Assembly: GCA_903928915.1 (NCBI GenBank)
Contig: CAIYSL010000119.1
Coordinates: forward strand, 1 to 64,000
DNA from: an uncultured Syntrophobacterales bacterium
GTDB taxonomy: Bacteria; Desulfobacterota; Syntrophia; Syntrophales; UBA5619
DNA length: 64,000 nucleotides
Reading direction: 5' to 3'
Both the position numbers and the translations under genes were made by a program. The stretch's first letter is position 1. Every line of letters begins with the position of its first letter. Under the pieces are notes generated by a model that worked only from the letters and a program-made list of their open reading frames with translations, did no database searches and was not told the origin of the DNA. Shown piece by piece: positions 29,177 to 32,984 of this stretch.

Positions 29177-31231
29177 TCACTGCGATCGCCCGCCCTGGTC
29201 GCGGGTCTGCGCCTGCGCCGGGTCGAGTCTCAGGATCGTCTGGTAGTGCTTCATCGCCTCGGCGACCCGCCCCTGGGCGTAATAGGCCGCACCCAGGTTC
29301 TTGTGGGCCTGGACATACCCGGGGTTCAGCCTGACCGCTGCCTCGTATTCCTCGATCGCCTCGGCGAGCCTGCCCTGGGCCTGATAGGTCGCCCCCAGAT
29401 TGTTATGGGCGAGGGCATGGTCCGGGCTGAGCCTGATCACCGTCCGGTACTGCCGGACCGCGTCGGCGAACCGGCCCTGTTGATAGTACGCCGCCCCCAG
29501 GCTGTAGTTGACTTCAGGATAATTCGGGTCAATCTCTATCGCGCGCAGGAATTCCCGGATCGCGTCGTCGAGCCGCCCCTGCGCCTGATATACGAGTCCC
29601 AAATTGTAATGCGGATCACGATACGCCGGTTGTAGATCAATTGCTGTCTGATATGCCTTAATGGCATCATCGTACCGGCCCTTCCGGAAATGAATCACCC
29701 CGCTGTTGTTATGGGCTTCGGGATAATCAGGTTTTACCTTTATCGCAATCTGATATTCCCGTAGAGCGTCTTCAAAGCGGTTCTGCTTCTCATACGCAAG
29801 ACCCAGATTCGAATGAGGTCGAGCCTTATACGGGCTTTTCGCAACAACATCCGCCCAGAACTTCTCCTCGTTCTGCCAGACCGCGTTCCTGATATGGGCC
29901 GCCGACGCCAGGCCGAGCACCGCCGCGATCAGCAGCGGCAGGACCAGCTTCGCCGCGGCCCTGCCCCGCTCTGCCAGGTTCGCCCGCAGAAGCCCCATGC
30001 CCGCAACGATCGCCAGCGAAAACCCGACCGAAGGGAGATACAACCGGTGTTCGAAGATGACATCCACGATCGGGATGATGCTCGACTCCACCGACAGGGT
30101 CACGAAAAACCACAGGATCCCCAGCCCGATCACCCGATACCAGCGCCCGGTGTCCCGCTCCGCTCCGTACGAACGGTACAGCAGGGACACCCCGCCGCCG
30201 AACAGGCCGAGCAGGGCCAGGAACGACAGCAGGACCGGCGGGGTGAACAGCGTCCGGTACAGGGGATAGTCGTAATCGAGATTCTGCCCCACCGGCAACA
30301 GCAGCAGCCTGAGGTATGTCACGATCACCCGGAACTGGGTGAACAGATAGTCCCACCGCGAGACTTCCGCGGAGCCCGCCATGCTCGTCACCCGGTCCAG
30401 TCCGTCCGCACCCTGGAGACCACCGTAGGCAATCAGGTACAGCGGGATCAGGGCCATCGTCAGCAACAGCGGAGCCAGGAACAGGATCCGTTTCCGTATC
30501 CCCCCCCGGAAAAACAGGAACTCGTACAGCGCCACCATCACCGGCAAGGTAAAGGCAATCTCCTTCGTCCGCATCGCCAGGTACGCACAAACAACCGAGC
30601 CCGCATACCACCCGATCCCGACCCCCTCCCCCGACCCCGTACTGCGCGCCTTGAGGTACAGGAGCAGCGAGGCCAGATAGAAAAACGTCGCCAGCGTAAC
30701 GCTCCGCTGGACGATGTAGGTCACCGCCTGGGTCTGGACCGGATGGCTCACGAACAGGAGCGCCGCAAACAGCGGCACCCACCCGGCGGGGGCCGCATCG
30801 CCCGGCCGCCCCCCGTTGCCGGGCCACGGGGACAGGAACCGCAGGATCAAAAGCATCAACCAATACACCAGCAGGGCGTTCGCCAGGTGTACCCCCAGGT
30901 TGAACGCATGGTAGCCCGCAACCTGGAAGCCGTGCAGCTTATAATTTACTGCAAAGGTCACCTGCGTGACGAACCGGTTCTTGTACAGATTCTGCGGGCC
31001 GAAGATCTGACCGAAATCCCTGATCACGGGATTGTCGAGGATCTGCCGGACATCGTCGAACAGAAACGGGACGGCGAAGGTGTTCGCGTAGATCAAAATC
31101 CCCACCGCGACGACGAGCAGGGCCTGGGCAAAGGGCTTGCGGAAGAGGGTCGCCGGCGCTGCGGGCGTGGGCTGCCTCCTGTCGGTTCGCTGCCGATTAT
31201 CTTCTCCCCTTTTCTCCGATCGTTGAGACAT
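29177..31231 (-). CDS. TMTC-like polytopic membrane protein with TPR repeats
   Basis: The start ATG at 31231 (MSQRSEKRGED) gives 684 residues. About ten membrane segments occupy residues 45-430. FEHRLYLPSVGFSLAIVAGM near residue 400 is the hallmark of bacterial proteins related to eukaryotic TMTC O-mannosyltransferases. The C-terminus (about 455-670) holds at least six 34-residue TPRs (pattern A-x-x-x-L-G-x-x-Y-x-x-Q-G-R). Such proteins are thought to glycosylate or assemble partners on the periplasmic side using lipid-linked sugars. The TPR codons in 29581-29820 are only about 48 % GC, unlike the rest of the gene. Confidence 0.82.
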   Translation of the reverse strand: MSQRSEKRGEDNRQRTDRRQPTPAAPATLFRKPFAQALLVVAVGILIYANTFAVPFLFDDVRQILDNPVIRDFGQIFGPQNLYKNRFVTQVTFAVNYKLHGFQVAGYHAFNLGVHLANALLVYWLMLLILRFLSPWPGNGGRPGDAAPAGWVPLFAALLFVSHPVQTQAVTYIVQRSVTLATFFYLASLLLYLKARSTGSGEGVGIGWYAGSVVCAYLAMRTKEIAFTLPVMVALYEFLFFRGGIRKRILFLAPLLLTMALIPLYLIAYGGLQGADGLDRVTSMAGSAEVSRWDYLFTQFRVIVTYLRLLLLPVGQNLDYDYPLYRTLFTPPVLLSFLALLGLFGGGVSLLYRSYGAERDTGRWYRVIGLGILWFFVTLSVESSIIPIVDVIFEHRLYLPSVGFSLAIVAGMGLLRANLAERGRAAAKLVLPLLIAAVLGLASAAHIRNAVWQNEEKFWADVVAKSPYKARPHSNLGLAYEKQNRFEDALREYQIAIKVKPDYPEAHNNSGVIHFRKGRYDDAIKAYQTAIDLQPAYRDPHYNLGLVYQAQGRLDDAIREFLRAIEIDPNYPEVNYSLGAAYYQQGRFADAVRQYRTVIRLSPDHALAHNNLGATYQAQGRLAEAIEEYEAAVRLNPGYVQAHKNLGAAYYAQGRVAEAMKHYQTILRLDPAQAQTRDQGGRSQ

Positions 31232-31512
31232 AGAGAATACACCCTTCGCATTACTGTCGTTGACCGTTGACCGAAGACACTGAGATGCGGCAGGCCCGTC
31301 ACGGTCGGTTGTCGCAGCCTTCCGCACCGTCCCGGCGTGATGCCTTCCGGCCCGCTTATCCTCCCATATCCATTTTTACGGGAAAAGGCAATTCGCATTT
31401 CCCCTATTCATAGGCGGTAAATCGTGTTGCTTTCAAAAACCCGGCATGGTAGACACGGCCGGTGCGGATATTGCATTCCGTTCATAGGAGAATCCATTCA
31501 CCGGGAGGGGCA

Positions 31513-32541
31513 ATGAAACGATCGATCCTTCTGTTTGTGCTCTTTGTGTTGTTGGGCAGCTTTTTCCCGCCGGTGGCGGGGGCCGCAAACAGCGGCGCCA
31601 TCACGCTTCTGTTCACCGGGGCGGTCAAGGGGATGCTCGACCCCTGCGACGCTTGAGCGGACAACAGCTCGGGCGGTCTGGCCCGGCGCGCGCAGGTGAT
31701 AGAATCGCTGCGGAAAAGCGAACCCGTGGTGCTGGTGGATTGCGGGGGACTGTTCGATGCCACCTCCCGGGACAAGGCTGAAGTGCTGCTGACCGCGATG
31801 GAGGCGATGGGGTACGACGCCCTGAACCTCGGCGGCCCGGAGTTCTTCTACGGCGCGGATTTTCTCGCCCATGCCCGCTCCCATGTCTCGTTCCCCTACA
31901 TCGCGTCGAACCTGAGCCCGGGGGGGAACCGGCTTGCCGGGGCCAGGCAGTACGTCATCAAACAGGCAGGCGGGCTCAGGGTCGCCATTCTCGGCGTGGT
32001 CCCCCCGGAAGAGGTCGACCTAATCCCCGGCCGGGAACGGATGGGCGGCCTGGCGGCTTTGCCCCCGGAGCCCGCGCTCAGCAAGCTGCTCACCGAGGTG
32101 CGGCCACAGGCCGATCTGGTCGTCCTGCTCTCCCGGTACGACGTGGAGAAGACCAGCGCGCTGGTGCAGTCCCTCACCGGGATCGACGTGGCCGTTTCCG
32201 CGGGCAGCGATGACGTCTTCTACGCAAAGCCGCTGGAGCACACCGTCCTGCTGCAGACCGGGTCCCAGGGAAGGACGCTGGGGCTGCTCAGGATCGCGCG
32301 CGACGGCACGGGCATCAGGGTAGTCGACCGGGGCCATATCCGGCTGGACCGCACCGTCCCCGACCATGCCGGGGTGGCGCGACTCGTCGACGGCTTCAAG
32401 AATGCCCAGCAGCTGCGCGCCGCCGAAGCCGCCGCGCAGCGCGACCGGGACTTGCGGCAAGGGCTGCGGTTGAGCCCCCAAGAGTTCATGGAGCAGTACC
32501 AGAAACAACAAGCGGAAACGAAAAAAGGAGAGGCACGGTGA
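31513..32541 (+). CDS. Probable UshA-like selenoprotein (UGA read as selenocysteine at codon 48)
   Basis: The frame from ATG 31513 (GGGAGGGG just upstream) to TAA-free end at 32541 is broken only by TGA at 31654-31656. Translating it as Sec gives 342 residues: signal peptide (about 1-25), LLFTGAVKGMLDPC, the motif C45-D-A-U48, then SSGGLARRAQVIESL. GGLARR after a PC motif is characteristic of UshA-like 5'-nucleotidase/metallophosphatase relatives, and this conserved stretch lies between the TGA and the next possible start (GTG 31696), so reading through is needed to keep the domain. A SECIS-like hairpin follows the TGA. Metal-ligand positions look eroded (VDCGGLF, LLSRYD, VSAGSDD), so a redox rather than hydrolase role is plausible. 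A pseudogene is the alternative. Confidence 0.8.
31654..31685 (+). promoter_or_regulatory. In-frame UGA and bacterial SECIS-like hairpin
   Basis: The UGA (31654-31656) is followed after 13 bases by a stem of five G-C pairs, CGGGC (31670-31674) with GCCCG (31681-31685). The apical loop is GGUCUG (31675-31680). The loop GGUC begins 18 bases after the UGA, inside the spacing accepted for bacterial SECIS elements, and matches the apical loop of E. coli fdhF. A SelB-Sec-tRNA complex would bind here. Confidence 0.75.
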
Positions 32542-32984
32542 AAACAAATCGACGGCTGCCCCTGGCAGCATGCTTGCTGATGGCGACCTTGGCGCTGGGC
32601 TGCGCGGCCCTGTCCCCGGTGGAGGAAACGCAGGCCCTGCACCAGCGGGTAGCGCAGTACATGCAGGCCCAGGTGGACGGGAAGTGGGAGCTCGCCTACT
32701 CCTATCTCGACCCCTCCTCGCGCGCTGAAATGACGCGGGAGAGTTACCTGAAGCGCCCGCGGAATATGCCCTACCGGGGGTTCGCGGTCGAAGAGGTCCG
32801 GATTCTTCCGGCGGGGGACCGCGCCACGGTCAAGGTGAAGATCGACGTCCGGTTCATGAGCTACGACTTCAAAGGGGCACCCCAGACGCAGGAGTGGGTC
32901 CGGGAAGAGGGGGAGTGGTTCGTGAAGGCGGCACAGCAGCAGGCGCCGCGGCATCCCTTCGGGTCCCCGCAACAGCAGAAATAG
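32538..32984 (+). CDS. Small outer-membrane or periplasmic lipoprotein, unknown function
   Basis: The GTG start overlaps the selenoprotein TGA (GTGA, 32538-32541), so the two are translated together. The 148-residue product has a lipoprotein signal peptide with lipobox LALGC (Cys near residue 22). The rest reads as a compact alpha+beta fold (VAQYMQAQVDGKWELAYSYL, VKIDVRFMSYDFKG, WVREEGEWFVKAA) that resembles NTF2-like/DUF4878-type domains; that is only an impression. It is probably a partner or anchor of the UshA-like selenoprotein. Confidence 0.85.
   Translation: MKTNRRLPLAACLLMATLALGCAALSPVEETQALHQRVAQYMQAQVDGKWELAYSYLDPSSRAEMTRESYLKRPRNMPYRGFAVEEVRILPAGDRATVKVKIDVRFMSYDFKGAPQTQEWVREEGEWFVKAAQQQAPRHPFGSPQQQK

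Follow-up and report, generated by a model that had tools for sequence, protein, structure and literature searches.

A probable bSECIS hairpin behind an in-frame UGA codon in the gene of a divergent UshA-like selenoprotein

A hairpin located at positions 31669-31686 (+) of the window, the whole 64,000-nt stretch of DNA that was analysed, very probably (about 95%) works as a bacterial selenocysteine insertion sequence (bSECIS) driving the insertion of selenocysteine (Sec) at the in-frame UGA 31654-31656. This reading was drawn from the DNA sequence, in which we found the hairpin itself, the marks of selection at the RNA level, an exchange of Cys and Sec at the position of the UGA among homologues and a genome equipped with the whole Sec machinery.

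The putative selenoprotein gene spans positions 31513-32541 on the forward strand and comprises 342 codons when the UGA is read as Sec, which then occupies codon 48. It starts with the ATG at 31513, 4 nt downstream of a Shine-Dalgarno-like GGGAGG sequence (31503-31508, +), and ends with another UGA (32539-32541), while the plain list of open reading frames reports the gene as 31696-32541. Translation with the UGA as Sec returned the sequence MKRSILLFVLF...LDPCDAUADNSSGGLARRAQ..., showing a hydrophobic segment at the N-terminus and a C-D-A-U motif of the C-x-x-U redox type (31645-31656, +) made up by Cys45 (TGC, 31645-31647) and the putative Sec48 (TGA, 31654-31656). Next comes the conserved GGLARR motif, whose codons (31672-31689, +) double as stem and loop of the hairpin.

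The sequence past the UGA reads GCGGACAACAGCTCGGGC-GGTCTG-GCCCGG and folds as U-CGGGC [GGUCUG] GCCCG-G. The preliminary description had claimed five uninterrupted G-C pairs closing a GGUCUG loop 18 bases past the UGA, and the coordinates bear this out, the pairs being C31670-G31685, G31671-C31684, G31672-C31683, G31673-C31682 and C31674-G31681, with the loop at 31675-31680. The stem can be extended to six pairs by the U31669-G31686 wobble, with a free energy of -10.4 kcal/mol, and the fold of 31666-31690 reaches -14.0 kcal/mol. The published bSECIS model requires a loop of 3-9 nt, a stem of 4-16 bp, a distance of 16-37 nt from UGA to loop, a G within the first two loop positions and a minimum free energy of -7.5 kcal/mol or lower (PMC13188914). 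The loop of 6 nt, the stem of five G-C pairs and one U-G pair, the 18-nt spacing, the initial GG of GGUCUG and the calculated energy all fall within these limits. A scan of the 64,000-nt window against Rfam returned no match at gathering scores.

The likeness to the E. coli fdhF element was also correctly perceived in the preliminary description, as the E. coli bSECIS carries the same GGTCTG hexamer at its loop, exactly 18 nt past the UGA. However, the upper stem of fdhF has a bulged U and its fold leaves a 4-nt GGUC loop, whereas the stem in the window is uninterrupted, with no counterpart of the bulge; the 30-nt core is also more stable than that of fdhF (-14.0 versus -5.7 kcal/mol) and the hairpin sits on a different protein motif.

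A match to the bSECIS model is by itself weak evidence, since about one in ten UGA triplets of this GC-rich window has one: the permissive model was satisfied after 160 (10.6%) of the 1509 UGAs counted in all frames and on both strands. A stem of at least 5 pairs with a GGU loop occurred after 28 of the 1509, four of which also reach -9 kcal/mol, and the combination of such a stem with a GGUCU loop was found only once, after UGA 31654. As the hairpin overlaps the codons for Gly-Gly-Leu-Ala-Arg, a fair null model has to hold the protein fixed. Of 20,000 shuffles of synonymous codons inside the gene, 0.08% produced a GGU loop whose stem was of equal or greater stability, and the only GGT among the 34 glycine codons of the gene is the one in the loop. 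The folding z-scores of stretches of 39-141 nt were unremarkable (-0.11 for 76 nt), so that the evidence lies in position, loop sequence and conservation and not in stability alone. The earlier contention that such a match is unlikely by chance behind a UGA preserving a family motif is partly circular in its argument, because GGLAR is encoded by the very bases that form the hairpin, and codons for Gly-Gly-x-Ala pair easily with each other.

Selection on the RNA was separated from selection on the protein by means of the synonymous third bases. Among 99 Sec homologues the third base was C in 81% at Gly54, T in 78% at Gly55 (GGT in 77 of the 99 genes) and C in 94% at Ala57, with entropies of 0.99, 1.10 and 0.31 bits respectively. 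As only 4 of 14 Cys homologues keep GGxA, the comparison with the Cys forms was replaced by a control on other conserved glycines of these Sec genes, phylogeny and base composition being common to test and control. These glycines (Gly40, 78, 107 and 114) use their four codons almost evenly, with entropies of 1.92-1.99 of 2 bits. Among the 91 Sec homologues that have GGxA, Gly54 was encoded by GGC 75 times, where the codon usage of the individual genes predicts 24.7; for GGT at Gly55 the count was 73 against a predicted 16.2, and for GCC at Ala57 it was 86 against 36.8. The excess corresponds to z values of 8 to 16, and of 5.5 to 9.8 once the set was thinned to less than 65% identity. A constraint on synonymous third bases confined to GGLAR demonstrates selection at the RNA level.

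Compensatory changes among homologues, a check proposed in the preliminary description, were found as well. Across 61 distinct sequences, 84.4% of the cells were paired, against 75.5% after shuffling and at most 47% when slid, and the covariation score of 0.261 (0.156 +/- 0.016 for shuffles) was reached in 0 of 500 shuffles. The stem pair at columns 18/31 alternates between U-A (27) and G-C (15), and the outer stem covaries in that a preceding codon ending in U goes with Arg or Lys codons starting with A, and one ending in G with CGN, typical combinations being CTT..AGG/AAG and CTG..CGG. Phylogenetically independent U-A/G-C switches amounted to 1 starred pair and 5 on all branches, a count underpowered by the small number of pairs. 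The contrast between Sec and Cys forms likewise yielded too few independent pairs to add weight.

Homologues were searched in 61 relatives and 395 genomes of the phylum, which returned many genes with exactly one in-frame TGA; a search of genome contigs with the single protein gave one distant match only. The motif region was read in 100 Sec-UGA and 14 Cys forms. The UGA stands in a CxU context in 56 of the Sec homologues and in CxxU in 35, while 9 have no partner Cys; the spacer between Sec and GG measures 4-7 codons in all 100. In L049, L070, L072, L076 and L068 the UGA has a Cys as its aligned counterpart, and CGC homologues occur among the Cys forms. The partner Cys is absent and the U/C position kept in L056, L057, L088, L104, L109, L114, L127, L150 and L151 (motifs PTQMC, GSGU, PVGU, PSGU, PAGU, DSGU and ASGU), indicating that it is more important to keep the Sec position than to keep the pair. 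Another homologue, L027 (G031:C21), has two in-frame TGAs, the second of which is possibly a second Sec, a frameshift or a sign of decay.

UGA homologues lacking the hairpin had been named beforehand as evidence against it; at least 3 contiguous pairs beside the loop were found at the same position in 84 of the 100 sampled Sec homologues, the exceptions being mostly distant lineages using other codons. One clade comprises a Cys form, L070, with GGC GGT, and its Sec sisters L089 and L096, with GGT GGG and a 7-codon spacer; L089 and L096 show no stem at the hairpin position and probably use a differently placed hairpin. The two nearest homologues of the window protein both occur in genome G014: L019, the nearest Sec form, and L049 (G014:C184), a Cys paralogue with 54% identity and a PCIAC motif. 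In L049 a GGC-GGTCTG-GCC hairpin is intact, with a spacer two residues longer; the gene looks like a recent switch from Sec to Cys, or the reverse, with a fossil SECIS.

A preferred competing structure had likewise been put forward as an argument against the hairpin, and the naive fold does favour one: in the free 141-nt fold a helix between 31651-31658 and 31667-31674 (+), which pairs the UGA itself, is preferred and the pair probability of the hairpin is 0.11. Once the ribosome footprint was masked (to 3-12 nt past the UGA), however, this probability rose to 0.76-1.0, the competitor being preferred in the ribosome-free fold only. A role of this helix as recoding regulator was considered and rejected, as L019 lacks the complementary bases of its upstream strand and ribosome masking removes it.

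The genome encodes SelA (613.9 bits; its gene lies on the same contig, C119), SelB (373.8 bits) and SelD (380.4 bits), together with a tRNA-Sec with anticodon TCA (UCA; 75.3 bits), and thus has the gene set of a Sec-decoding organism. The SelD gene itself contains a UGA, followed by a GGG loop at 17 nt, and the formate dehydrogenase FdhA gene (G000:C85) has the same loop hexamer as the window hairpin, with GGTCT at the same 18-nt spacing. A second formate-dehydrogenase-like gene, L192 (G000:C123), also has an in-frame TGA (ARIUHSATV). A ribosome arriving at UGA 31654 would melt the upstream structure while the hairpin forms downstream; SelB with GTP and Sec-tRNA(Sec) would bind the GGUCUG apical loop and deliver Sec at the UGA, and translation would go on to the UGA stop at 32539, yielding an exported UshA-like protein with C-x-x-U beside a degenerate, metal-free 5'-nucleotidase site.

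The UGA might instead be a true stop, or have arisen by premature mutation or through an error of sequencing, with the hairpin a by-product of GC-rich GGLAR codons. The complementarity of GGC and GCC is indeed inherent in coding Gly-Gly-x-Ala, a stem of at least 3 pairs arises in 26% of the synonymous shuffles of the gene, and the Cys paralogue L049 keeps the same hairpin, so that the hairpin alone does not prove recoding. However, about 100 homologues within the phylum have UGA at the same codon, including L019 with 52% identity, and both the restriction of the third-base constraint to the GGLAR motif and the full Sec machinery are contrary to this view, which we deem very improbable. Equally improbable is a UGA read through by other means, either near-cognate suppression or codon reassignment, while the hairpin serves to pause the ribosome. 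The 20 aligned homologues show nothing but U or C at position 48, tRNA-Sec and SelB are present, and the gene itself ends in a UGA followed by a hairpin without a GG loop, which implies that this organism still uses UGA as a stop. Insertion of Sec at codon 48 stands as the preferred reading.

The element might, besides Sec insertion, tie the expression of a coupled downstream gene to selenium supply. A lipoprotein-like gene (32538-32984, +), with an LGC lipobox-like motif and a weak, sub-threshold DUF4440-like match, begins with a GTG that overlaps the UGA stop of the selenoprotein gene (GTGA, 32538-32541). The lipoprotein neighbour is kept beside L019 (50% identical) and L056 (33%), the same ACGGTGA junction recurs beside L019, and the lipoprotein start would be out of reach for ribosomes that terminate at codon 48. 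However, gene overlaps are common in operons and the coupling is one that we infer, so this additional role seems unlikely. On the other side, a divergently oriented gene for a membrane/TPR protein lies upstream (29177-31327, -), and a 56% homologue of it also flanks L019, showing that the locus order is conserved.

The AlphaFold2 model of the selenoprotein was confident, its mean pLDDT being 83.9, with residues 49-51 beside Sec48 poorly modelled. Foldseek matched it to CD73 and UshA with a TM-score (query) of about 0.7, and to a venom nucleotidase, and the family profile matches the 5'-nucleotidase 5h7w by sequence. The protein shares its fold with the calcineurin-like metallophosphoesterases UshA and SoxB but differs in all 8 of the 8 metal-site residues compared, the ligands DxH, GD, GNH, H and HxH being replaced by A/K, G, G/P, R and G/D, and it lacks the C-terminal nucleotide-binding domain. 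At each of these metal sites, most of the Sec members read there differ from active nucleotidases or are mixed.

UshA-like selenoproteins are known in a CxU form, NF041198, and a CxxU form, NF049981 (PMC13188914, PMC9312934, PMC2398784), the former kind having been listed as COG0737/UshA-like with CxU (PMC2398784); a search of the literature found no function for them. NF041198 (UshA_like_PCGU) was the best family match, with 138.5 bits over 258 residues against a cut-off of 275, a threshold also missed by L019 (169.6 bits) and L049 (155.5 bits), while NF049981 (UshA_like_Sel_2), for which the cut-off is 140, scored 56.7 bits. The window protein has the fold of NF041198 and its Sec ahead of GGLARR but contains CxxU instead of CxU and reaches half of the curated cut-off; moreover, the NF041198 profile covers a C-terminal multiheme region, whereas the window protein is devoid of any CxxCH. 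With NF049981 it shares the CxxU motif. It combines the UshA fold with a U or C just ahead of GGLAR, as the superfamily does, and being homologous to both families but below both cut-offs it is, as judged from these profiles, a divergent member of the known UshA-like selenoproteins and not a new kind.

A C-terminal tetraheme region with four CxxCH motifs, cytochrome c-554-like in L058, occurs in the relatives L058, L070 and L072; this fusion supports, but does not show, a role in electron transfer. With its metal ligands lost, the protein is more suggestive of redox chemistry than of a phosphatase, and the predicted product is somewhat more plausibly an exported redox protein than anything else.

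The window protein, L019, the Cys form L049 and L056, with Cys at the same position, might constitute a separate unnamed clade, its metallophosphatase fold stripped of all metal ligands and bearing a lone CxxU redox pair, in which the co-transcribed lipoprotein depends on Sec readthrough. We consider this proposal unlikely; if true, selenium would control both the UshA-like protein of the clade and the lipoprotein. Gene callers would either stop at codon 48 or choose a late start for the selenoprotein gene, and it also escapes the profile models that could recover it, so that the clade is likely truncated in databases. The predicted bSECIS would also be a clean example of a single stretch of DNA carrying two codes, the GGLAR peptide and the SECIS hairpin.
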